From the NCBI GenBank assembly GCA_013076295.1, contig RQOL01000660.1, positions 2,976,001-3,040,000 of the forward strand: a stretch of DNA of 64,000 bases, written 5' to 3'. Under the pieces are notes generated by a model that saw only the letters and a program-made list of their open reading frames with translations, was not told where the DNA came from and did no database searches. Each line of letters starts with the position of its first letter. Within the stretch, counting starts at the first letter, position 1. Of the stretch, positions 12,501-44,300 are shown one piece after another. This DNA is from Sanderia malayensis (Eukaryota > Cnidaria > Scyphozoa > Semaeostomeae > Pelagiidae). The position numbers and the translations under genes are program-made.

Positions 12501-15500
12501 TATAAATTACTCACCTCCCAATGCGTTTAACAACTCAAGGCTGCGAACCATGCACTGCGCAGGAGGCCTCTGTAAAACAAAGATTGCAACTTCATAAAAA
12601 CGTCGCAGAATAGATGAAGAGCTTTATAGAGTATTGAGACAAGAAACGGAGAACTATTAGTTTATAATTGTTAGTTGAATACTTGTATAAAGTAGTATAA
12701 AATAGAATAAATAGCAACAGAGCAATATACAGGGCAATGATTAGCAGCTACATGAAGTATTAAGTGGTAAATAATGGAAATAAAAGTATAAAGCATTGTG
12801 TAGGGGGGTATAAAGTTATATGGAATGGAACATGACAGATAGATTTGTATGGAATAAATTACTTACTGATAGAAATGTGAATCGAAGAACGTTTTGAATT
12901 CCAAGTGATTTCAATTGAAGAACTACTGGTGCGAGATCAGATCTGAAATACAAATCAGAAGAGGATATAAAACGCGGACCAAAAATGACATGCGGATCCA
13001 TGGAACACAGGACATGAAAACAGGAATGGCGGAGCATAAGCTAGTGGTCTGTAGCTTTGATTCTGAAAATCACCTTTGCATTTCAGGGCAGGTTTTCTTT
13101 TCTAAATCATGGTAAGCATCCTCTGAAATTTAATGACATTTAAACATTAAGTATTTTAGATTATAGAGTAAAACAATGTGGTGAAAGATTGCTGAGAAAA
13201 CAAACCTGTATACAATCGATATGCTTTTCCTGGAAAAAAATATTACAAATACCTATTATACTTGACGAAAGAACTCAGATATTAACCAAAAAACAAAGAG
13301 ACAAACAAACAAAAAACAAACAAATAAACAAACAAGTAAACAAACAAACAAACAAACAAGTAAACAAACAAACAAACAAGTAAACAAACAAACAAGTAAA
13401 CAAAAAAAGACAAACAAATAAACAAGTAAACAAAAAACAAGTAATCAAACAAGTAAACAAACAAACAAGTAAACAAAAAGGAGACAAACAAATAAAGAAA
13501 CAAACAAGCAGACAAACAAACAAGTAAACAAACAAACAAACCTGATCTGACTCTGCCAGCTCTTCCTGCCCTCTGAGTTGCAGATGCTTGTGAAACAAGG
13601 ACAACAACTAATGACTCTGAAAAACATTACAAATATGTTAACAAATGTTATCGCTTGTTGTCGTTATAACGTTGGCAACCTCCCATAAAACTGCAGGCTG
13701 CATCGGTATGTTTGTCTCACCGAACCTCAATTATTACGGGGGTTGATCATAATTGAGATACTTTATCACTTAAACCGATACATTTACTTGTAATTGCCTT
13801 CGCAACTGTCTTTGTGATGACAAAAAAATGCAAATAACAAAAATATTGAGTATTTAAAGTGCAATTCGTTTGAGAATACTTGCCAATTCCAGAAGATGGA
13901 TTATAAGCCTTGAGTTTCACAAATCCACAATCAATAACTACAATAACAACAAATTGGGGTAGACTCTATTCCTGCCTCTCAATGAAAATGGAAACATTGC
14001 TGAATAATGTATGTAGATTCTAGAGCAACAAAGATATGTTGACATTTATCGCTCTAGAGTCTACAGTAAGAAATTCATCATGTTGTATTCCTCTTCAAGA
14101 CCAACTAAAAGTAAATGGTGAGCTACCGTGCGAGTTGAACTTGAAGTAGATAAAGACATTACTATGCTGCTATGCTATGTGATGGTAGATTGCATAGTAG
14201 GTATAGATTTGTATAGATTTGATAGAGTAATATCTCTGTGATTTCTTACTATAGACAATGCCATTAATCGTGACGGATGCCTCTGCAATATTCGTAGCGA
14301 TGACGACCTGTAAAAGAAGTAAAAAATCACATCAACAAACAGGAAGAGGAGAAAGCGGCATTAAAAAGCAACCAACAAATAGAGTTTACAACAGCGTCAG
14401 GCAACAACTACCTACGCTGACGCTGATTTAATGTCAGCCGTTTTTGCGCCAGCCCTTGTTACGCCAGATGACGAAAACTTAGGCCATTCAGTGCTGGCGT
14501 AACAAGACCCGACGGGGCAAATTAAATTTGAAAATTACATGTTTTGTGCAATTATTTCCTTGCATTTCGTCGACATTTTGGGCGCAATTTAAAACTAACC
14601 TTTCGGGTATTTTGGGGCGGACGTTGAAAAGCTTTGAGCTGCGAAAAAGAAGACGAATCATTGTAAAAGATATAGCAAACATTTTAATAAGTACAGTCCA
14701 CTTTGCTAATGTGGCCACAAGCTTTCTTCAATTCTGTCACGTTTTGTAAATATTAATCATGGAAAAGCGTGGCCTGAAAATACTTATCAACCAATTTTAC
14801 GGTCTGTTTGCTTAAGTTTTCAGTGTTCTTTAAGGAACTAACAAAGATAGTAATCGCTAAATTTTCGCCAGATATTGTCCTAGAAGAGACATCAAATCAC
14901 TCAGCAAAGCCGAATAGAAATATGCTGTAAACAGTTACACAAAATAAATTGATTAAACAGAACAGGTGATGTAAAAGAAAGAGGGAGACGAAAATAGGCA
15001 AAATCGTGATGATATTGCAAATGTTAAATTTAGCCTTTTACGAGCATTATATAAATAGAACAAACAGTATGCAAAAATTGCTACTGTAGAATTTCAGAAG
15101 CAGGCAGTTCACGTCGCTAATGACTCTGACGCCGTTGCATCTCTAGCAAATGCATGATGATCATTGGTAAAGGGCTTACAAATCTTGGATTAACAGCACA
15201 AATAAAAACCATTGCAGCTGGTGTTTTTGAGCGTTGATGAAAAACAAGAAAAAAGCGCTGAACATTTCTGTCGAGTTGCAAAAAAACAAAAAAAAGGGTA
15301 TTCTGAAAAAAGTGTACAACAAATGCTGGTGCATACGAAACTAAGAAACGGAAAAATGTTTGAATCTTTGCGAAAGCCAGCAGCTTGCAGGAAAGGTTAA
15401 AAAGGTAGCCATCGCTTACAATGATAGTGAGCGCTTTGAAAAGCAACAAATTTTGAGCTCGCCATACAAAAAACGATAAGAACCAAGCATCATAAAAACA

Positions 15501-18500
15501 TCGTTTACGCTATAAAAGATTCACGGATTGTAAGCAAATATCAAGATGATAACCGGGCAACTTCTTGCGATAAAACTGGCATCGTTCTTTGTATTAACAG
15601 CCTCATTCTTCCTCAACAGTATCGGCATTTATTTACTTCATGTGACAAGACACTCCAGCTCGAACCAAGCAATAATCATCATGCATTTGAGCATCACTCA
15701 AATTCTCATAGCATGCGGATACATTGTACAAGACGCATTAACCATACAAAAGGAAGGTTATGACAAGTATAAGCATAATTAAGCTATCTCAAGAAATTGG
15801 GCGGTTAGCCTACCGGCCCGGATTGCTTGAGCAAAGAAAGGCATTTACGGTCGGTGATTCCGACAAACTCCGGCCGGTACACCAGGCAGTACTGACCGAA
15901 TGGTCAAACTACAGAACAATGACTGAAATCATAATGCAAATCAATAAACAATAATAAGGAGAGGGAGGGTGGGAGAAATTGTGCTAGCTCTCTGAGTTCC
16001 AACGAAGAATGATTAGAAATGCTACATGTGTATTCCTATGCCCCAAGGATTTAATCCCTACAAACATGCCGCAGTAGCCGCGTGGCAAGTCTCCCCAGTG
16101 CCCAATATCCGGGGTGTTACTGAAATAGCCATACGTGTTAATGAAGGACTTAATCCGTGCCGCCAACTCCACACGAATATTATAATCAGCGAGCGATGCA
16201 ATTTCTTTCAACCTTAACCATTTTTAAATTGCATTTAAAATCATTTAAGCTATCTCAAGAAATTGGGCGGTTAGCCTACCGGCCCGGATTGCTTGAGCAA
16301 AGAAAGGCATTTACGGTCGGTGATTCCGACAAACTCCGTCCACAGAACACGTAGTGTGACCCCACGAATCCCGAACGTAAAGACTACAACTTATGGTACC
16401 CATTTCTCAATTTTGAACTTAAATTAAATTAATCACACTTGCCGTAGGAGCTAGCAATTCCTCCCCTCTCCCCAAACAATAACACTTAGCAAAAATGGCA
16501 GATCAGGAACAAATGGCTAAGGTAAATGTTTACTATACGCAATCAAAAAATCATAATGGAGGCCCCTGACTGACGGCACCACCGGGCAGCCGCCGTGACC
16601 TCCTAAGGAAAACAAAAGCCAAAAAGGAAGGCTGCAGGCATAAGGCCACGCAAGCCCAAAAGGCGTGGCATTTTTCATCGGTGGTAGCTACCCTCAATGA
16701 GGTATTTAACAACTGAACCCTTGACAAGGTACTTTAGCACTGCAACATTCTGTGGGGCACTTTGAAGCTGTACCGTCCACAAGGCATTTTATCCCGGCAA
16801 CTCCACGAGGCACTTGAAAGCCGAGTGACATCTGATCCAAGCAAGACAGCGTGCGTTGTCCCGTAGGCTGACGCGACAGGAAGCCAGATAACAACAACAA
16901 AATTAACACATAAACAGTAACTAAAATGTAAATAGAATATGATGACGTACATAACTTTAGCAATAACAACAATAACAAACAGAATTGGCAGTCATGAATT
17001 TAAGTAGTGATAAGTTTAACTATCTTGGGCCTCTTGTGACAAAGCATAAGAGGCCGTGATCAATTGACTTTGCGGTAGTTTGATATAAGCTTTGTAGGCC
17101 GTGCTAGACCAGCGGCCTAAGGCCTGGATAAGGTAGTCCGGCAGGCCGACAGCAGCCGCTGTGGTCGCGGCCCCGACCCGAAAACTGTGCAGAGAAAATG
17201 TTTTAGGCCATCCACATTGTCGTAACACGGCTTGTAATTTGGCGTTCAGCGATTGTTTAGTTAAGGGCGCCCCATGGGCCCAGATGAACAAGGGACCACG
17301 AGAGCCCCCCCGGAGGGCTAGGTACGTCAGAAGTGCCGCAACGGGACAAAGCGGACCGCTCGTGCGGGGAAAAAGTACTGTGCAACCCTTTCCGAACTGA
17401 TCAGTTTTTGAAAACTTAAGTCTGAGGTAAACACGGTCCGGAACTGGATGTTGATCAATAGAAATGTCATCAACCGTTAACTGTTTTGAAGCTGTAAAAC
17501 CTTCCGGTGGTACCGTGAATTCAGAGGCGCGTAGGAAACCGAAAAAAGCCGTCAGACAAGCTGCCCAGAACATGACATCATCGGGTCGTGACATATTGAG
17601 TTCAAGTTTGATTAAACGAAGGACGAAGGGCGTAATCGGCATTTTTTGCTTCGGTGGGGCTGCCTGTTGTCTGCGTAGGCCGCGAATAGCCATAGGAACC
17701 CGCACACAGCCGTCCAACGGGTCGCAAAACCCGTGGCGTAGTTGAAGCGCCCGAACCGCGGATAAATAGACTTTTATCGAAGAGGCTTTACAGGACGGGC
17801 TGAGGCTTGAAATAAATCGGAGCAGTGTTAGTTCAGACACAGGAAAAGGAGACCCGTGGCGATTGAGAAACCCGTATGCCGCGCAGAAAGCTATGAAACG
17901 TTTCTGAGCCGACGCATATGTCTTTTGAGTGTTGACTGCAAGGGAATTGGCCATTAAATTTTGCCAGCCTTGATCCAGGGCGGAAAAAGCAACCGATTGA
18001 GGAAGCTCTGGGGTATGACCTGAGGCGCTTGATCCGCGTCCGGCATGTTGCATATAAACGTCTGAAAATCAAAGCGGGAGAGAGCATCAGCCGCGACATT
18101 AGTACGCCCAGGGATGTGAATAGCCGTAAACGTAAAATGGTTAGCGATAGCAAGCAACGAAAGCTCTCGCAACAGGTAGGCCAGGTGCCGATCTCTGCAC
18201 GTTCCCTGTTGGAGACATTGCACCACCGCCATATTGTCACACCGGAAAGCCACCCGCCTCCGCGACCACGATTTTCCCCAGAGCCGAGCCGCTAGCACGA
18301 TCGGGATGAATTCCTTAATGGCAATATTCAAGGAGAGGAGGCCGACGGGCCAGGCCGCCGCAAACCATTGAGTGCCAAAAATAGCCGCGTAGCCTTTACT
18401 TCCCGCAGCGTCCGACGTCACGCTAATGCACGGGGCCTCGGACCACGTGCGGTATAGAAATAAGCTGCGGCCATTCCAACAGGACAATAGCTGATCCCAC

Positions 18501-21500
18501 CACATAATATCATCTCGTTCCCAGGCCGATAAATGGGCATGATGATGTAATTCGGGCACCGAGCCCGCCCTATCAATTAAGCGACGTAGAAACGGTCGGC
18601 CCAAAACAACGGCTTGGCAACAATGTTGTAAAGTGCCAATGAGAGATAACAATTCACGTTTTGTTCCCGAGGATTTTTGAGACCACCGTGCGAGGTTGTG
18701 CTTGATTTTCGCAATTTTTTCGTCCGGTAAACGTAGTTCCATTGTGACAGAGTTCAAAATAAACCCCAAAAACGATATTTCGGTTGCAGGACCCTCGGTT
18801 TTGTCCTCGGCTAGGGGAACCCCCAGCTGCGAGCAAGTCTGAAAACACCGCTGCAGGGTGTTCGCACAATCCGTTGTGTCTGGTCGTCCGAGGACAATGA
18901 AGTCGTCTAAGTAGTGCTGAATGAGAGCAGCCCCCCCGGTTTGTTCAAAAATGGCCTGCAGAACGTCAGCAAAGCGAGTAAATATCTGGGGGGCGGAACG
19001 CAAGCCGAACGGTAAAGCGAGATCCACAAAATAAAAACCTCGCCAATACATGCCCAAAAACGCACGATCCTCGGGCCGAACTGGCAATAAGCGATAGGCT
19101 CGTTTTATGTCGAATTTTGCCATCCATGTACCCTTGCCTAATGCCATTATTTTGGACACAGCTGCGGGAATGCCCATATACGATACCGAGGCATTCGCAT
19201 CAGGAATGCAGTCATTCACACTGTGGTTGACTGGGAAAGACAAATCCGTAATTAAGCGCCATTTTCCCGGAGTAGACTTGGGGATAACCCCAAATCGGTT
19301 AATAATTAACGATGGTAGAGGAGGGGCAGCAAACGGCCCCGCCATGGTGCCTTGTGAAAGCTCCTCCGCAAGATAAGCATCAATGATTGCTGGTTGTTTA
19401 AGAGCGGAAACACAGTTTCGGGTAGCCGCTCTAGGTGACCCCAAGGTTAAGCCAATATTAAATCCGTGAATAATCCCATCAAGCACCCACTTAGCATCCG
19501 GGTGAGACGAATAACGCAGGAAATCACACCAAGCATAAGAACGTAAAGCAGTGATAACGACAGGTAATGCAAATACGTATGAAGAATTAGTTAAAATGTC
19601 AAAGTCTAGTCATTTCGACGAGCGCTGCTTCTTTGTCGCGGGCGGTGAAAGAGATCTTTGACGATCATCCCTGATTGGCCTGGCCGATTTTGAGGGGCAT
19701 GCCACGGCTTGGTGGTCCCCCCGACAACGATTGCAAATATGGGCATAGCGGCATTGCTTGGCAAAGGGACAGGAGCCTCGATTCCATAACTGACAGGCGC
19801 CGGCTTGCGGGCTGTTGGGCTGTGAGGCCCGGAATGGCAATGCAGATTGTTGGACCCCGGAGGTCAATACCGTGGAGATATACAATGTAGGATCGAGTGT
19901 TGACCAAGAGAGCTGAGCATTGCTGGCTGCTTGCTTGCGAAAAGCGGTATCATAGGAGAGCCACCCCCGTCCCGGGACATCCCTGTGCGCTTTTGCAATG
20001 AGCAAAAAATAAGACAGCAGAGAGGGGAGTTTTTCGGCGGAATTTCTGACGACAATAGCGGCAAATATGGCCCAAGCCTCGGCCCAATCTTCGAAGGTTG
20101 CGATAGGCGGCAGCGTTTTCAACAAGCGGTCAAGCTGAACACTTGATGGCGGCGCTGTAGGCAATGCAGCGATATTACAAAGACGGAGAAGCATAAAATC
20201 AACGAACTCCCCTCTCTCAATGGCGGCTACGATGTACCCTGGGACGGGAGGGAGGCCACCCATGACCGAAACCGCTGGCCCAGGAGGCAGAGACATAAAC
20301 GGTGGTGGGGCATTTTTCCAAGCGTCGGCCTGGGGGCCAAATAGATTTTCTAGCCAAGTTGGAGGTGATGTGTGCGGGGCAAGAAAACCAGGCATAGGGT
20401 GGTTGGTTGAACCTGCCATCGACGTCGGTGGAATGTGATTCTGAACCCGCAAGAAACTAGGCGCGGGAGGGACGGCTGCCTGGCCACCCTGATGCTCCGG
20501 AGCCGAGAACATACCCGAAACAGATGATCCAGAAGCTTCATTATTGTCCCCAACAAGAGTACGAAGAGTTTCCTGAATGCTAGATAGAGAGTTTTCAAGG
20601 GACTCAATGCGGGCCAGTGGGGCGGAGCCTTCAGGAGTTTGCTGATTTTCTGCTGCCATTACGTAACGTAAATAACGAAAAGCAAAAAGGAACGAGCTCA
20701 CCGAATGTCTTTCTCCAATCGTCTGTCGTTAACCTCACTGTGGCTGTAGGGCAAGGCAGCGTTAACTTCACTTGGTCCCGTAGCGGTTGATGAACCACTA
20801 AAAACTTGGAATCCTGTAGCTTCGGTAGAGCGGCAAACAATTCACGGAGAGGAATAATAAACGAAAGAGAACAAATTGTGCTAGCTCTCTGAGTTCCAAC
20901 GAAGAATGATTAGAAATGCTACATGTGTATTCCTATGCCCCAAGGATTTAATCCCTACAAACATGCCGCAGTAGCCGCGTGGCAAGTCTCCCAGTGCCCC
21001 AATATCCGGGGTGTTACTGAAATAGCCATACGTGTTAATGAAGGACTTAATCCGTGCCGCCAACTCCACACGAATATTATAATCAGCGAGCGATGCAATT
21101 TCTTTCAACCTTAACCATTTTTAAATTGCATTTAAAATCATTATGAAATCAATTGCGCAGATAATCTGGGCATGTAAGTCAGGCGCCTACTGCGTTTGGT
21201 ACTTCATCATATATTTCATCGCCTTAGACCGTTTTGTCGCCTGCAATCTCCCGTTTAAGCATCGAGTTATCGCCTCAAGGCGAAATACGAAAGTAATCGT
21301 GATGATTTTTTGGATTCTCGGGGTAATCAACACGAGTATTCTCGGCTTAAAATACGAGTTCTTCTATACTCTCTACACAAAGTACGTCTGGTTGATATTA
21401 GATGGGTTGTTCTTCGTCGTGATCATCATAGTCTACGCTTCGATATTCGCGAGAAAAAAACCGAAAATTCGCGTAAATATTGTTTCGCGATCAACGGAGA

Positions 21501-24500
21501 GTCGACGAAGTTCTCACCAGGCTAATCGGAATCAGCAATTTTTCAAAGTCGTCGGATTAATTGTGATCAGTTTCATTTTATTGGAAATTGTTCCAACCAC
21601 AATTTTCTTGATTCTTTTCATCATTACACCAAGCGGAACAGAAATCACATTGGCCTTGATATTATTATTTTATAGCCTTCAACTCTTGGCTAATCCGGCT
21701 ATTTACATATTTCTTCAGAACAGAATAAGAAGAAAATTGCTTGATGAACTTCGAAGAATAACACAATACAGAAGGAATAATATTAAAGTTCACAAAACAA
21801 ACACAAAAATTAGCCCCTCCGAATTTAAAAACAGCAATATTCAAGAGACAAAGCTGTGAAGTAACAATATTTTTGCATAAAACGAAACAAAAATTGACGA
21901 TTCAAGCACGCGATAAAATTTCGTATTCCTTTCAGAGATTCAATTATCCGAAAGGATTCCATAGTAAGGGTCTCATTTCTTTTTATTCGTTCCGTATTTT
22001 ATGCAGGGCCTTAAGGAAATAGGCTCCTGTTCGCGAGGCAACAAATCAATGGAACAATTGAACGAACCACAGTGAGGCAATGCAATCCAAGAAGACAAAA
22101 GACAGAAAAACCACAGAATATAAAAGTATCTTTCTCTATCCTGGACAGACAGACACAGAAGATAGCTTCCAGCATGTCCGCCATCAAGACAACACCGCTA
22201 TCCAAAGATGAAGCAGAACGCCTCAAAGGATTGTATGCTTCTCATCAATTAGGGAGATCTTTTCTAAGAACAACTCCTGGTAACTGGGTGTTATCTGCAG
22301 TTTACGAGAAGAACAAATCTGATATTTACAATTTGAAATTGCGATCCGATGACACTTTTATTTTAACCTGGCCTAAAAATGGAACAACGTGGACCCAAGA
22401 AATGGTTTGGTGCATTTTGCATGACAATGATTTGAAGAGAGCCAAAAGTATTCATCCTTACACGAAAGTGCCATTCCTTGAAAAGCCATTTATGCTTGAC
22501 TACCGAAGGGTAAAACGCCCTGGGGACAAAAAGGGGGAAGTACCAGAAGTGCTGGAACCAATGCCTGCAAATCGTGTTATCAAATCACATTTACATTTGG
22601 AGTTGCTTCCACCGAAATTATTAGACCAATGCAAAGTTGTCATGTGCCTTAGAAATCCTAAAGATACGGTGGTATCATATTATCATCATGAAAAATTATT
22701 CAAAGCTGAAACATTTATTGGAGATTTTGACGCAAGTTTTAATCTCTTCATGGATAATCTGCTTGAATACAGTTCGTATTGGAAATACACAGTTGATGCC
22801 TGGAAATTGAAAGACCATCCCAATGTTTGTTTGCTGTTTTATGAAGATATGAAACAAGATCTCCAAAGTTCCATCCGAAAAGTTGCGAAATTTTTGGGCA
22901 GGGAATTGACGGATGGCCAAGTTGAATCACTTGAGGATCATTTGAGTTTCAAAAGCATGAAACAGATTTCTGTAGCAGTTGAAGATGAAAAGAAGTTGGA
23001 AATGTATGTCGAAAGCGCAAAAAAAGACCAACACTTTTTCAGAAAAGGTGAAGTTGGTGATTGGAAGAATCATTTCACAGAAGAAATGAATAAAATAATG
23101 GATGCTGAAATAGAAAAACACTTCAAAGGCATTGGCCTCGAATTTAGATACGAATAAATAAACAGATTCATTAGTTAAATGCATAATGCAACAAAGTTGA
23201 TAAATGACTTTATGATTCTGATTTGCTTGATTTTATTACTGAATTAGTATTTTATTTTAGCTTTAGTTTTGAAAAGAACGGAGGAAGCTATGCGGTAACA
23301 GGACGTTTCGCCCCCAAACCAGTTCACCCCTATTCAAGTTGGTCAATTCGCCCCCTCGAGATAACCGATTCGCCCTCTATTGATTTTGCGGTGTTGGTCA
23401 GTTCGCCCCTAGAGAGATCAAATATGTTAGTGCGTCCCCTTGTTTGTTTATCAACACAATCTTCAATGAAATCCTGTTGTTAATGAAGCTCACACTATTA
23501 GCGACTTAAAACAAAACGAAATACGGAATCATAATCGCCAATTGTAAATTAAGGCCCTGTTCACACGACACCGTTTTTATTTGGCTCCGTTCATTTTGAT
23601 CGGTTTACGATACGATATACTGCGTTCACACGGGAAACGATTGTAATTGACTTTCTGTTCATTAATATGTAACTTAAATACTCTAACACAACTTGATGTT
23701 GCAAGAAACAATGATAAACAATTTTTTAAGAACTGATGAAATGATTTTGCGCACGGCCAAATGCGAATTTACCTTGGCCTAAATTGCCCACCTATCAAAC
23801 TTTCCTGAGCAAGTTAGCAAGAACATCAGATGTTGACCAACTCAGAAGTCAAATGAAAATACAAATATTATCCTTAATTTAGATTTATGTCTCATATATA
23901 GGAGAATTCAGAAATATAATCAGTAAGGGGCGAACTGGTATGAGGGCGAATTGGTAACGAGATGCGGGCGAATCGACCAGAGATGAGGGCGAATCGACCA
24001 GGGATTGGGGCGAATCGATCGGTTAGGGGGCGAAATACTTTTAGGACAGGGGATGACGCTGTAAGAAAGGTAAACCATATGGCCTGAGAAAAAGAGGACA
24101 CATGGGGAAAACATGGAATCGGCAACTCGGGGAAGAGATCAAGAAAATTGGGCTTGGGAATGAAGATGCTTTCAATCAAATTGAATAAAGTTGCGCGAAA
24201 CGGGAGGAAAATCGGTCTCGGAGTGAGATAAACCCGGTCATCGTCGTCAACATTGAATAAACCGGATGACGATTAAGACGGCAATTAAGATGGTAGTGGT
24301 TGGGGAATGTTTATTTTTAAAGACGCAAAATAAGTAAAACAAGGATCGCCTCACCTGTTCCGCAAACGGTAATCCTCCATACAATGGAACAACGCTCAGC
24401 TTAATATCTTTTTTTCTCAAATTATCAGCCTCATTCCTAAACAAACAATAAATTTTAACTATAAAAATATGTTTATGAATAGTGAAAACGTAATTGGAAA

Positions 24501-28280: not shown

Positions 28281-30416
28281 CGCTAATCAGAATATCCTGA
28301 AAAACGTGTCAAGAATTACCATTCATGTTCATAACTGCTTGCTGTTAGGCCAAGAAAGCCTCAGTCTGTCCCACCTTTTAGCTCGCAGACCACGTGTTAA
28401 AAGTGGATAGCTGTGGAGTGGACATAACAAAATTCAAAATAATTTGAAGATAGCCTCATAAGCAATCGAAACATAAGAGCCTTCTCGTCATTCCTGAGAC
28501 AATTTCCATCATTCTAGAACACATTTTTCAAAAGTTACATGTCATGAATGAGCTGGGAATTGTCTCAACATATGATCAGTAGGATCTATTTAGTAGAATT
28601 CGACTCCTTTGGAGGCATTTTTGCTCACGGCAGTGAGAGTATAACATCACTGGGGAAAATTCATGTGAACTTTTTTCGGCTTTTATATCTCCTACCATAA
28701 TACATTGCGGGGAGGCACCTATTTTCATTGGGCAATTTATAATTTCCTTGCCAATCAAAGGACACAACAACAAAGGATGCAATTGGATTAGTGCAAAACG
28801 CAACAGGGATTCATTGTTTCGAAAATGCTCAACAACGCACGATCGATCCGGAAGCATTACATCATCCAGTCGCAATAATTGTCAGGGAGTCGCATAGCTC
28901 AACAGGCTTTGTTCGAATCGAAGAATTCAGTACGCGAGGAAGCTCGGGACATCTCCCCCTCGCACGCAAAACAAAAGCCTGGGCACTGCAGCATCTGCTG
29001 ACAGAGAGCACACAAAGCACTAAAGCAGAGATTAGACGAAAACAAAGGGCGGAAGATTTTTCGAAGGAGAAAAGTGTAAAAATTTCGAAAAATACAGGGA
29101 ATTTTTAGCTGAAAAAGAGCCATTACATCGAAGGAGGCGAAGGGGAATAAATTGAAGTGTTTTCGGAAAAGAACAGGCAAGGAACGAAAGGGCCAGGCGT
29201 GGGAAATCGATCTCATCTTACGAACAATAAAATTGAATGAAGGAAGGATTCAAAATAACCGTGTTTAAATGAAAACCTTTTCACATTTTCCTGTCAACAT
29301 GAAAAGAAGCTTCCAACAGTCGTGGAACACTTGCAGAACACTGTCAGAGATCATCTGTAATTTCACAAAAAATTCAAATTCCTGAAAACTTATTCCAGCG
29401 AAAGTTTTAACTCATTCACGAAAGTAAATTCCAAGAACTGCGCGTTTTTCTTTCTTTACAGTCACGAAAGTTTCTCCCCGCTAGAGTTTCTTCCCTTAAT
29501 TAAATATTATCAGTAACAACTACCATCCATCATATTCAATAACCAAAGTGCCGTGAGCACCGAAAGGTTACCCTTTGATTCAGTCTATTTCAAAATTTGA
29601 ATTTTTCAGTACTACCTACTTCATGTATGATAGAAAGCTTAAACAGCTACTTATCCGCGGGATATCGGTCCAATCGGTCAAATCTCGGTCCACTAAAATG
29701 TGCTAACTTCTTTTCGATTTTCCTGTTCAGCATAGGTTCCTGCACGGAGCAAAAAGTATCCGGGGTCTGATACAATATTTTGTCACATCCACGTTGTTTT
29801 CTTTGTTTTCAATGAAACATTTTTCATTAAATTAAGAAACTTTTAAGAAACTTTTAGAACTAAAATGTGACTAAAACTTTTACTACCCTAGGCCTTGTTT
29901 CTTATAAAAAAAAGGTTACACGCTTGGATTCCCACCCTTAGCATCACCCCAGATTCCCACTCTAACACGGCTATCACGAGCTACCCTCTATAAACACTGC
30001 GCTTTTTTGGAATATCACAAAGGATAGTCCTATAGCTACATGGAAATATATAAATATGTATCTCATATTAGTCGGTTCAACGATTGTGAAAGCATGAAAC
30101 TCCGAGTAACAGAGAATTAGTCTACTTTCTTGCTTCTGCCCTATTAATGCTCTGTACTTCTAAACCTGAACATCGATTTCTAAAGATTTTCATATGACAG
30201 CCCTGTTTCCATCCTATTCTGGTTTGTATATTGTTGCCCTGTCTTTTCACTTTTGTTCTTTTTAAATTCCTGGTTTAATTTTGTAACGCTATCTCATTCT
30301 TGCGGTAAAAAAAGGTCAAACAAAACAAAAGTCTAAAGGCGGCTGGTCATGATTTTGCCACAGGTCTGGCGAAGAAGGCGTTGCATTTCTGGAACATTTT
30401 TATCAAGCCTGGAAAA
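28281..30416. other. intergenic between divergent DHX35 and sulfotransferase copy 2
   Basis: No supported gene. The DHX35 promoter must lie just right of 28280. An open frame at 28791-29108 shows no recognisable protein features. GC content rises modestly near 28800-29200. Confidence 0.5.
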
Positions 30417-31378
30417 ATGTCCACTATCAAGACAACACCGCTATCCGAAAATGAAAAAGAACGCCTCAAGGCACTGTATGGTTCTCATCAATTAGGAAAA
30501 TCATTCATAAGAACAACTCCTGGAAATTGGGTGTTGTCTGCAACTTACGAAAAGTACAAGTCTGATATTTACAATTTGAAATTGCGATCCGATGACACTT
30601 TTATTTTAACCTGGCCTAAAAATGGAACAACGTGGACCCAAGAAATGGTTTGGTGCATTTTGCATGACAGTGATTTGAAGAAAGCCAAAAGTATTCATCC
30701 TACCATGAAAGTACCATTCCTTGAAGAACCAATTGTGGTTAATGGGGAAATGGAGGAAACCCTGGAAATACTAAATTCAATGCCCGCAAATCGTGTTATA
30801 AAGTCACACTTGCAACTTGAGCTCCTTCCACCGAATTTATTGGACCAATGCAAAGTTGTCATGTGCCTTAGAAATCCTAAAGATCCGGTGGTATCTTATT
30901 ATCATCATGAAAAGTTGATGAAATGTGCTAGTTTTCTTGGGGATTTTGAAGCAAGTTTTAACCTCTTCATGGATAATCTGCTTGAATACGGCTCGTATTG
31001 GAAATATACAGTTGATGCTTGGAAATTGAAAGACCATCCCAATGTTTGTTTGCTGTTTTACGAAGATATGAAAAAAGATCTCCAAACTTCCATCCGAAAA
31101 GTTGCGAGTTTTCTGGGCAGGGAATTGACGGATGACCAAGTTGAGTCACTTGAGGATCATTTGAGTTTTAAAAGCATGAAACAGATTTCTGTAGCAGCCG
31201 AAAATGTTGAGAAATTGGAAGGGTTATTTAAGGAAAAATGGATGAAAACGGGCACTTTTTCAGGAAAGGTGAAGTTGGTGATTGGAAGAATCATTTCACA
31301 GAAGAAATGAATAAAATAATGGATGCTGAAATAGAAAAACACTTCAAAGGTATTGGCCTCAAATTTAGATACGAGTAA
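30417..31378 (+). pseudogene. sulfotransferase copy 2, frameshifted near the C-terminus
   Basis: A paralogue of 22174-23157, highly similar along its length. ATG 30417 (MSTIKTTPL). WPKNGTTW, the catalytic His in RVIKSHLQLELLP and CLRNPKDPVVSYY are intact. Between TTGGAA and CACTTTTTC copy 1 has 30 bases and copy 2 has 32, so the frame shifts. The ORF ends at 31310 (297 aa), while the normal C-terminal coding, including the PAPS-contact RKGEVGDWKNHF and final FRYE, continues in another frame to a stop at 31376-31378. Copy 2 also lacks a short stretch around codons 110-122. The shift removes a cofactor-binding loop, so it is either a young pseudogene or an assembly error. Confidence 0.85.
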
Positions 31379-39402: not shown

Positions 39403-41395
39403 GTTGAATCAGTCTATGATTGTTGAATTGTATTGCAGCAAAGGTTTGTTGTCGTAGACTTTTTTCAATTATATCTCAACAAAGTAGCGCCGATAACGTG
39501 AGATGAAACTTCTTGTATCACCGTCTTTGTTTTTAAAAAGCAACTTGTGGTTGCCATGCCAAGATAACTGCCATCCCTTGGTGTTACTTATCTGTCATTA
39601 ACATTTCCTTCAACTCTTGATTATGATTATGATTCATCTCACTTTCAACCATCAATCCAGTGTCAGGTTCTGTTTGTCCTTTGGTCTTTTTGCTTTGTTC
39701 CTCAACGGGTTCTATTCAAAGTCTACAGATCTTATTTCAAAAGAGTGTAGATAATCTTAAGCCAAATCCCCACATAAAAGTGAATGATTGTTCCTTTTAA
39801 CTTGAGGCGCTTGTTGTTGAAGTGGAAGATGATAGCATTTATGCCTGCCTTCTCATTCTCTGCGAAAATAAAAAACTTTTCGTCAATTTCGGAACATTGC
39901 AATGGCAGAATGAGGTAGGCTTGGTTGGAGCTCGTAGAAGTTGGGGAATCTTTGTACAGAGAAAGCGAATTTGTGTTTTTCGACTTGATAAAGAGCATTT
40001 AAACCTTGTAGAAATATTTTACACCTTATGTAAAATTATAGACAATGTCATTTTATGGCAGGGGATGTACTTTTCTGACAAAATCCTAATTATCAAATCT
40101 TGGGGGGAACCATAGAAATGATAATATCAAATATCAAATAATATCAAAGTTTGTAATATCAAAAGATCGTCAAGTCAAGGGTGACTGGACTGATATGCAT
40201 TTGATGGGGGGTCAGATTCCTTGGGCCCCCCACCCCAAGAGTTTCCAAAGCACCGCCAGAGCAAAATAGTGACGTCATCAGGGTACCGTTTTCAAGCCAA
40301 GCCTCGATATGAATGAATAAAGAGAAATTCTTTGAAGCTCGTTTGCTGGTGAAGAAAGAGGAAGTTGAAAATTTCGATGTCGTAAATACCTTTTTTTAGC
40401 CGCAAGTTCCTTGTTTGCTATTGTTTTGCACCAAAGGAGGAAAATTCAATTATTGAACTGAGACATTCTCCGAAGGTATGAAAACATTTTGAGTATTGAC
40501 GCACGCGAATTAAATCGAAAGTTGTATTTGATGCCGAAATTGGCCTAAGGATTTTGGCCACATATACCAAAAGCGCATTTCTGTTGAATAAATTTACTTT
40601 GCTTTATCTCTAAATTGTGTTTGCGCTGAAGAAATGGGTTTCGGAAAAGCCGACGGTGCTGTAGCTGTGAAAAAGGTTTGCTTCAAATGTGCTTTGCTTT
40701 GGTAAAGTTGATTGTTTATTCCCGACATGTTATAATATTTTTCCGCAGAGCTCAGAATATCCAGCAAACATCTATTAATACATGTGCTTATTATTCTGGG
40801 GCATAATGTGCTAGTTAAGGCAAGCAATGCCGTGGCGTGGTTAACAAAATATCTTCCACAAAACAAAATTAAAAAAGGAACACAGAACAGAACTCTAATC
40901 CGATCCGCGTAGAAGTTTAATTTTGTTTCGATGTTTCTTAACTTAACCATTTCTTGGCGGCTTATTGATTATATACGAGGTTCTCAAATTTCCAGATACA
41001 TGGTGCCGAGACCCAAATTTTTATCAAAAAATAATACGTACTGAATTCCAGGTGGGATTATGAAAAAATTGCTTTCCTGTTTGTTTATTCTGTGATTTGT
41101 AAACTGTAAGGTGATAACTTTATGCAAACTTTAAATGATAGAATATTTTGCTTGAAAAAAGTAAATCAATTTTGACTGCTGTAGTAAATTGATGTTTTTT
41201 GTAACTAGTTTCTTCTTATGACCACGCCCATGTCACACCTCTGTCTCATTGACCACACCCAGCTTGGTGGCCTTGAGCCAGCAATGACCAGTAGAAAACT
41301 CTGAGCCAGTCCACCACTGCTATAACTATCATGTGATCTGCATGTTTAATTAGGCTTTGCTGATTTTTTCGTTTTTTCAGGGTGAAAGAAACAAC
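39403..41395. other. intergenic region between orphan ORF and MALT1
   Basis: I support no gene here. A minus-strand frame at 40594-40950 (118 aa) has no recognisable features. A pyrimidine tract with AG at ~41380, 16 bp before the MALT1 ATG, looks like a splice acceptor, so MALT1 probably has an upstream non-coding exon (or receives a spliced leader). Confidence 0.5.
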
Positions 41396-44300
41396 ATGGC
41401 AAAACCTGATCCAAAAACAGAGATCAGAAAATTACCATATCGGTACTACAGGGAGTTGGCTGAATTATTGGATAAACCTGGTGATAAAGACTGGAAAAAA
41501 CTGATCTCTGTTTTGCCAGAAGGAATGTATACCATAAATCAGGTAGAAATATTTTCACAACAGTTGAGGTGTTTCGTTTGCTATTCCAAAAAGTTCAGTT
41601 ATTGCTGCTCATTATTACAAGATTTTATTTTAACACATGTTGCTTATACTGATGCTTATACCTATGAGCATTATACAGATTCTCTGTCCTGCTCAGTATT
41701 GGTGTTAGTGTAAATAATAATAATACACTGTTTTTACAGCAACAGGACATTGTTGGCTGTTATATAGATGCAAGTGTATCCATGTCGTGATTATATTATT
41801 CATGGTTACTGTTTTGATGGATGAGATCATTGATTAGCTCTGTTTCTTAAAGGTTGGCAGACTGGAACAAGTTGGCAAAAGCACAGATGGAAGTGCTGCA
41901 TATGAACTTCTTACTGATCTTGGTCATCAGCTTCTTAATGTTAAACAGTTGATTGGTTATTTGTCATTGATGAATCACCAGGAGGCTTTATTACTTTTGA
42001 AAGAAGAAGGTAACTAGTTTTATGTTTTTCTTCACAAGTTGCATGCCCATACCAGCTGTATAGCTGCCAGAACCCTCAGCCTACATTAACCAATAAATAT
42101 TGCTTGCTTGCCTGTCTGTTTGTTAGTTATGAAATTAATCCTTGGGGCATTTAAATTGACTTCATTGAAACATATTATTTTTAGAGCCAGTAAGAATTGT
42201 AAAGCAGCCAGTATCGATTTGCATTGAAGTGGGTAGGCGCGCGAGTCTGAAATGCTTAGCAAAGGGATTTCCTCAGCCTAATTACCAGTGGATTAAAGAT
42301 GGCTGCGATGAATTGGAAACAGGTATAGACAAGGAACTTATTTTCAAAGAAATAACTTTGGATGACGCAGGAGAATATACTTGTCGAGTATCAAACCCAA
42401 TCAGTTCAGAATGCACAATTCCTGTCATTGTCGAAGTTACTCAAAGTAAGCCATTTTTTCATTCTTGGTCTTTATTTTTTGCTCATTGAATGATAGATTG
42501 ATAAAGAAAGAATTAGTTATATGTCTAGAATCTTAAATCCATGTGTTTACCTGTTGAATTATCAATACTTTTTGTTCTCTTTATACTTACATAATTAAGT
42601 TAACTGATAGATGATGTAATGAAGCATTCATGATTAAAGTTAAAAAACTATATTTATAAAAGGTTGGAAAACTAATGGAAATTTTGTCTCGTTTTAGTTC
42701 CAATGGAATATATTCCAAGAATTCATCCAAACAACGGCCCATTGCAATCTGTTCAAAACATGGGTGGTAAGTCAATATAATACTCTGTACTCTCAGTACA
42801 CGCCTTTGTCTGTTTTAATGTTATTCTTTATCAAATTTAGCACAATCTATTTAAAATCCAGTAAAATTTGACCCATAGAACCTTGTGTCTTTCTAGTCAT
42901 TCTAATGTGTTTAGTGCTTCAGAAATATCGCAGGGAATTAAATTGCGTTTGCTATGCTTAAGTGGAGAGAGACGTTCATCAAATTACTTTTTGAAATCCT
43001 TTTGTTTAGATATCCATGTGACTGACCAACTTCCAGCAATAAAAATTTTACCTGGTCAATATTATCAACTTTCATGCGGGATAGAAGAACGACCAGATCT
43101 GCAATTTTATTGGTTGAAAAACGCGCAAGAAATGCCGGGCGAAAATCGCAACATCCTCGTTTTCAATTCATTCCAAGTTGAAAACGAGGGCTATTATTCG
43201 TGTCGAGTTGTCGGAGCTGACATGAGGTTCTTGACGAAAGTAGTGGAGCTCAAGCTCGGTAAGTGACTAGCAGTAGTAACTTATGGCGGCACCATTGGTA
43301 TAGATGTTGAAAAACGTATTGCCGATATGTTATGTTATTGCTAACTGTTCCATCCGATCAAATCTTTGTTGTTGGTGTATTTTAAACGAGGCACACTACT
43401 GACCATATGATGTTTTATTTTGAACAGACAGCATGACGTCACTTAACCGGCAGTTTGGTATGTATTTCAGATAATTTGATTGCAATGCGCAATGTAATTA
43501 GACTCGAACTCATTGCTTTCTCAGTTTGAGTTTCTATAGCTTTAGGATTTTGAATTTGTCGAATGTATACTTCAAACTTTACCCTTGACAAACTTCATAG
43601 CTCCTCCTCAATAGATCAAGCTTTCCCTAGTGTTCGAAGTTTGACTGCGGAGCATCAAGCATTTCATCTTGCTTTTAGCAACTGGAAAAGTCGCCTTGGT
43701 TATCGGCAACCAGGATTATGTGACAAAGCGAGCACCAAATCTTGAACTTGTGCACCCAGTTGATGACGCGAGAACCCTGACGAGTGTTTTATACGAAATG
43801 GGCTTTAAGGTTCTCTGCCTTGTCAATTTGGACAGAAATGAGATGATGAAGGCCATTGATGGGTTTTGTGAATTGCTACGAATCTCTGAAGGAATGTATG
43901 GCTTGTTTTATTTCGGTGGCCATGGCTATGAAGAAGGTGGAAAGACTTATTTGGTCCCTGTTGATGCACCAAAAGATTGGACGCCCCAAAATACCGTCTG
44001 TGCTGACGAGGTTCTGTCCCAAATGCAACAATCAAAAACCAAATTGGATGTTTTATTTCTTGACGTTTGCCGAAGACCGTGAGTTGGTTCAATGTTATGT
44101 CTTGTTTTTGTTTATTTAGCAAGAGCTTGTGGGCATCTCTTAGTAAGTTGATTTGCACACCCAGGCTAATTAGCCATTTTTGTAATTAACCCCCCTGGTG
44201 GGGGCTTATTCGAGGATTTGCGGCGTTGGACTAGGATTCCTCAAGGTCGTGTAACAATGACATTCTGTTAATATGATCTGGACATTATTCGTTATTATCT

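Follow-up and report, generated by a model that had tools for sequence, protein, structure and literature searches.

In Sanderia malayensis, two open frames that encode parts of a G protein-coupled receptor (GPCR) lie on either side of a retrotransposon, and the insert falls exactly between two codons. This arrangement raises the question of whether the locus is a broken gene or one that the animal could restore by removing the insert. An earlier note on the same DNA considered a receptor switched by precise recombinase excision an intriguing possibility. Here, we analyzed the 64,000-nucleotide stretch that contains the locus (the window), together with the genome assembly and the relatives of both the receptor and the element. 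We are highly confident that a single-exon class A GPCR was recently interrupted, in its first extracellular loop, by antisense integration of a Ngaro-type retrotransposon that is full-length and probably self-sufficient. Elements of this kind are known and the gene disruption is an ordinary one, with no sign so far of receptor switching.

Two parts of one receptor

The receptor 5' half occupies positions 15546-15779 of the plus strand (234 nt, or 78 codons from the ATG at 15546) and encodes transmembrane segments (TM) 1 and 2. Its frame stops at a TAA at 15780, a stop codon made by the end of the element. The 3' half, at 21143-21859 of the plus strand (717 nt, i.e., 238 codons and a stop), begins with an ATG at 21143, ends with a TGA at 21857-21859 and encodes TM3-TM7. 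Leaving out 15780-21142 yields an open frame of 316 aa in a single exon, as had been claimed, and among the five join offsets compared (-2 to +2) offset 0 alone gives an open frame, so that the reported split at a codon boundary, 78 codons on one side and 238 on the other, is borne out. At the predicted element-free junction, CATAAT would be joined to ATGAAATCA, and the empty site would read CATAATATGAAATCA.

The joined protein has seven distinct hydrophobic stretches, a DRF variant of the DRY motif after TM3 and a canonical NPAIY in TM7, in agreement with the earlier assignment of TM1-TM2 to the left half and of TM3-TM7, with DRY-like and NPxxY motifs, to the right. The break lies at residues 78/79, between hydrophobic stretches 2 and 3, which, judging from class A topology, would place it in the first extracellular loop. 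The Pfam profile 7tm_1 matches the joined frame with 37.5 bits (cut-off 30.5) over profile positions 2-260 of 260 and the right half alone with 34.1 bits; a Pfam search with the left half alone gave no match. Taken together, the 7tm_1 profile, the seven membrane stretches and the motifs of DRY and NPxxY type identify the predicted product of the joined frame as a class A (rhodopsin-like) GPCR. A PDB search with the receptor also returned class A proteins (best E 0.0017, beta-2 adrenergic receptor), and because these matches are weak they suggest no ligand class. A 20-bp inverted repeat, 95% complementary and possibly due to chance, pairs the upstream region (15147-15166) with left-half coding sequence (15670-15689).

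The two halves could in principle derive from two different receptor genes, an objection that the earlier note itself had raised. A search of approximately 5.8 billion proteins with the joined receptor returned five relatives that passed, and the best two, P0001 and P0002, are 44% and 43% identical to it over 92% of its length, aligned through the junction; none of the relatives listed exceeds 44%. P0001 is 47% identical to the left half and 42% to the right half, and the corresponding values for P0002 are 48% and 43%. When P0002 was searched back into the genome, the right half was the top match (193.6 bits) and the left half appeared as a short match of 48%, the highest identity among the matches listed. 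A paralogue on C829, matched over its whole length, reached 190.2 bits (38% identity), nearly equal to the right half alone. The receptor matched 26 places in the genome; two (L002 and L006) are the window's own halves, 12 (L003-L005 and L007-L015) were aligned, and the weaker L016-L027 were left out. Each of the 12 aligned paralogues has one uninterrupted open frame across the junction position, with a length of 286-352 aa counted from the first Met. Since both halves are about equally similar to the same two relatives, the back-search agrees and the paralogues run through the junction, an origin from two genes is rejected; by sequence similarity, the halves are parts of one receptor.

The split receptor resembles other 7tm_1 receptors of this genome, most of which share with it a DR motif and a TM7 motif of the D/NPxIY type; the joined frame, like theirs, is single and open, and differs in being split by the insert. 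It has glutamine in TM2 where 12 of the 17 aligned relatives have glutamate, and NP in TM7 in contrast to DP in nearly all of them; the third DRY position varies among the relatives as well. Conservation among the other 17 aligned sequences defines 22 columns; the joined protein departs at one of these, and each of the 17 at 0 to 5. No frame damage was found in either half, so the earlier statement to that effect stands, and a receptor already decaying before the insertion was not seen in this comparison. The closest intact paralogues in the genome are 36-39% identical to the receptor, and the genome search revealed no close intact duplicate. At C569:5487799-5502774, a region of approximately 15 kb contains six frames of paralogous receptors and one further, partial match.

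Several other genes are present in the window. Two sulfotransferase frames (Sulfotransfer_1) are located on the plus strand near the receptor, at 22015-23157 and 30309-31310; the latter covers the profile from position 2 to 208 (of 255), and visual inspection suggests that its end is out of frame relative to the former. Further downstream (41354-44082, plus strand), Pfam identified two immunoglobulin exons and, after them, an exon with a caspase domain; the first frame (41354-41713) gave no Pfam match. This gene resembles a MALT1-type paracaspase.

Anatomy, relatives and integration of the element

The element is 5363 bp long and lies on the minus strand at 15779-21141 or, equally, 15780-21142. 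One T is ambiguous, and both placements of the ends give the same empty site, consistent with the absence of a target duplication reported earlier. The G+C content of the insert is 49%, compared with 38% for the receptor. A repeat search revealed two pairs of split direct repeats, all on the minus strand. A1 (20873-21141) forms the 5' end of the element and is repeated as A2 (15976-16244); B1 (16245-16338) is repeated as B2 (15779-15872), which forms the 3' end, and the two B copies, 94 bp each, are identical. A spacer of 103 bp separates A2 from B2. B1 and A2 abut at 16244/16245 in AAAATCATTTAAGC, the sequence expected from joining the element ends.

Three minus-strand frames, open from stop to stop, lie between the repeats. 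A gag-like frame (19610-20728) carries a CCCH zinc finger near its end, where the motif is present and the profile match is below the curated cut-off (zf_CCCH_4, E 7e-4). It is followed by a reverse transcriptase (RT) and RNase H frame with a YLDD box (17954-19609; RVT_1, E 4e-17; RVT_3, E 0.001, the latter below the curated cut-off) and by a tyrosine recombinase (YR) frame (17016-18068; Phage_integrase, E 1e-4, again below the curated cut-off). The recombinase frame contains LRASE, HSFR, GRW and AYI, which we take to be the catalytic residues, in the order expected of them. Thus, the order on the minus strand is A1, gag, RT/RNase H, tyrosine recombinase, B1, A2, spacer and B2. Pfam searches for a methyltransferase domain gave no hit at E up to 1 for gag, YR and the larger part of the RT frame, nor at 0.01 for the whole RT frame.

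Relatives of the element were searched for in the 184-Mb assembly of 918 contigs. Among the best 30 left-end loci, the internal junction of a longer element is preserved at 20. Another 7 are solo A-B remnants of approximately 466 bp followed by flank, and 3 are undecided. A second AAAATCAT, at approximately 776-797 of the left-end loci, is internal and continues with AATGGAGGCC, as it does in the window. For the long repeat (20873-21142), 40 of 83 candidate matches were scored, and 32 of these could be paired as copies within one element (e.g., L036/L042, L037/L038 and L051/L052). In 13 of the 16 pairs the spacing is approximately 3.9-4.3 kb, compared with 4.9 kb in the window element. Six such loci (L061, L064, L065, L078, L079 and L083) match the first 968 bp of the window element at 90-94% and then diverge. 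A shorter related form of approximately 4 kb, perhaps non-autonomous, outnumbers the window element among the copies listed.

The ends of these copies delimit the element. In 29 left ends, including that of the window copy, the shared letters start with TTAAGC and the flanks beyond differ; these are from the best 30 loci, with L086 left out of the counts because the end pattern was not found there. In 14 right ends, the shared letters finish with AAAATCAT, and the flanks beyond again differ; the 30 long-repeat loci comprised 14 internal copies, 14 that gave right flanks, and L044 and L046, which do not extend to the end and yielded no flank. As the loci were fetched by the element ends themselves, the information lies in the point at which likeness stops. 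The one exception to differing flanks is a pair, L081 (C698) and L085 (C913), that share a satellite flank; the same insertion with its flank on two contigs may reflect a duplication or the retention of both haplotypes by the assembly. This satellite, with units of approximately 200-230 bp on several contigs, is found beside copies of the element family more than once (L078, L081, L084 and L085).

By eye, the flanks of 13 copies show no target-site duplication, and none is present at the receptor; Ngaro elements in general are not known to make any. The 19 right flanks (14 and a further 5 at solo copies) begin with T in 15 cases and have A as the third base in 18 (13 of the 14 and all 5 solo-copy flanks), a mild preference. 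The receptor target, which reads T-A-T after the element end, is slightly atypical. We compared the joined flanks of the 13 copies with the other fetched loci and the window; three had matches across the junction, and one of these was usable. This copy, on C698, lies in the satellite; over 500 bp, empty units match its joined flanks at 98.8-99%. The spanning alignments, 41 in all, are to five loci (six had spanning matches; L047 was left out). Within 20 bp of the junction, 33 of them are free of gaps and the other 8 contain one. The remaining two copies gave distant matches only (76% and 73%), and their alignments are gapped at the junction. At the C698 copy, no base was gained or lost on integration. 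The codon-exact fit of the receptor halves follows from such conservative integration, as seen in this one sister copy, and needs no further cause.

Age of the insertion and fate of the receptor

The paired repeats provide an estimate of age. A1 and A2 show no substitution in 269 bp and differ in the length of two C runs, by a single base each; B1 and B2 are identical over 94 bp, the single mismatch at position 95 of the 97-bp pair given by the repeat finder being taken as the repeat edge. Zero substitutions in about 363 bp correspond to a 95% upper bound of approximately 0.8% divergence, a value calculated for 364 sites that presumes that the paired repeats were identical at insertion. These data support the earlier view that the insertion is young. 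Among the 40 candidates scored for the RT segment, the closest copy apart from this one is 94% identical, so there is no near-identical sister that would show present activity.

In a young insertion, an undamaged receptor frame is expected anyway. At the upper bound, approximately 3.9 substitutions are expected in the 948 nt of the joined frame; the frame would escape any nonsense change with a probability of 0.84, and both nonsense changes and frameshifts with a probability of 0.47 if indels are assumed to occur at 0.15 per substitution. Preservation of the frame as a sign of selection is therefore rejected, and the intact frame carries little information on continued receptor function.

We propose that the RNA of an element was copied into a DNA circle that joined both element ends, and that the tyrosine recombinase exchanged this circle with the target with no bases added or removed. 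The internal B1-A2 junction, which carries the sequence of such a circle, and the sister copies with the same ends are the basis for this intermediate. On this chromosome, the insertion would leave a 78-aa fragment with TM1-TM2 and a TM3-TM7 fragment that is, as far as known, promoterless. The resulting allele would be null or near-null and too young for decay. Loss of function, allele frequency and assembly correctness are here inferred from one assembly.

The insertion may well be polymorphic, with an empty, working receptor on other chromosomes. This proposal is compatible with the disruption described above, and we favor it by a slight degree over a fixed insertion. The substitution-free repeat pairs and the undamaged frame fit an age before necessary fixation, and the genome offers no close paralogue as a stand-in. 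On the other side, the right half and the 646 bp upstream of the receptor match the genome once each, so the assembly holds no second allele, and the protein search, too, listed no closer relative; a single-copy locus is also what collapsing or purging of the assembly would produce. The 646-bp region was also considered as another repeat, which was rejected because it matches only itself.

Three further proposals would retain or restore function at the disrupted locus itself. Receptors can be reconstituted from fragments, and the halves might be made as separate peptides that reassemble, with the break in the TM2-TM3 loop; both frames are open and the right half begins with an ATG at the junction. 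The right half, however, has no known promoter and the element is antisense to it, and intact P0001 also has a methionine near the same place, so the ATG is probably incidental. We regard this split receptor as very unlikely.

Hardly more credible, and in our estimate a little less so, is the reversible switch, in which the recombinase excises the element precisely in some cells and carriers are mosaics with a restored receptor. The recombinase has an open frame in which the motifs follow the expected order, and conservative integration run in reverse would restore the frame exactly. Against this, the loss products that we could recognize are solo A-B remnants (7 of the 30 left-end loci), precisely emptied sites not being recognizable in these data; the flanks of other copies show a preference in base composition and nothing that points to receptor genes; and the portions of the literature returned by our search contain no report of Ngaro excision. 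With the codon fit already explained by conservative integration and the recognized losses being solo remnants, switching by precise excision, as the earlier note envisaged, is unsupported.

Splicing of the element from the transcript as an intron can be dismissed almost entirely, as it has the intact flanks and nothing more in its favor, the element ends are TT...AT or TA...TT and not GT...AG, and cryptic sites inside the halves would probably cost codons.

A recent disruption by a Ngaro-type element thus remains our preferred explanation. The locus offers a clean natural case of a YR retrotransposon inside a coding sequence, in which the reading frame certifies to the base that nothing was gained or lost. 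Should the insertion prove polymorphic, animals with and without it would provide a natural knockout comparison for an orphan receptor, and the locus would be a good one in which to seek precise excision by such an element.

Comparison with known tyrosine-recombinase retrotransposons

In three studies (PMC4157794, PMC9210276, PMC8547959), Ngaro elements are described as having split direct repeats in the arrangement A1-[ORFs]-B1A2B2, gag, RT/RNase H and YR with HxxR and Tyr, and no methyltransferase. Isolated AB repeats elsewhere in genomes with Ngaro elements are also mentioned in one of them (PMC8547959). The receptor insert shares all of these properties, including the isolated AB repeats, and its anatomy shows no visible difference; its placement rests on structure.

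According to another study (PMC3266345), the terminal repeats of DIRS1-like elements are inverted, and these elements also possess internal complementary regions and a methyltransferase domain. In the model outlined there for DIRS1, a proposed circle intermediate recombines with the genome without target duplication, and no base is added or removed. The receptor insert is likewise a YR retrotransposon without target duplication, but its repeats are direct and a methyltransferase domain was not found in the Pfam searches; this absence sets it apart from DIRS and PAT. Overall, the structure of the insert argues for a Ngaro-type retrotransposon, a known kind of element.
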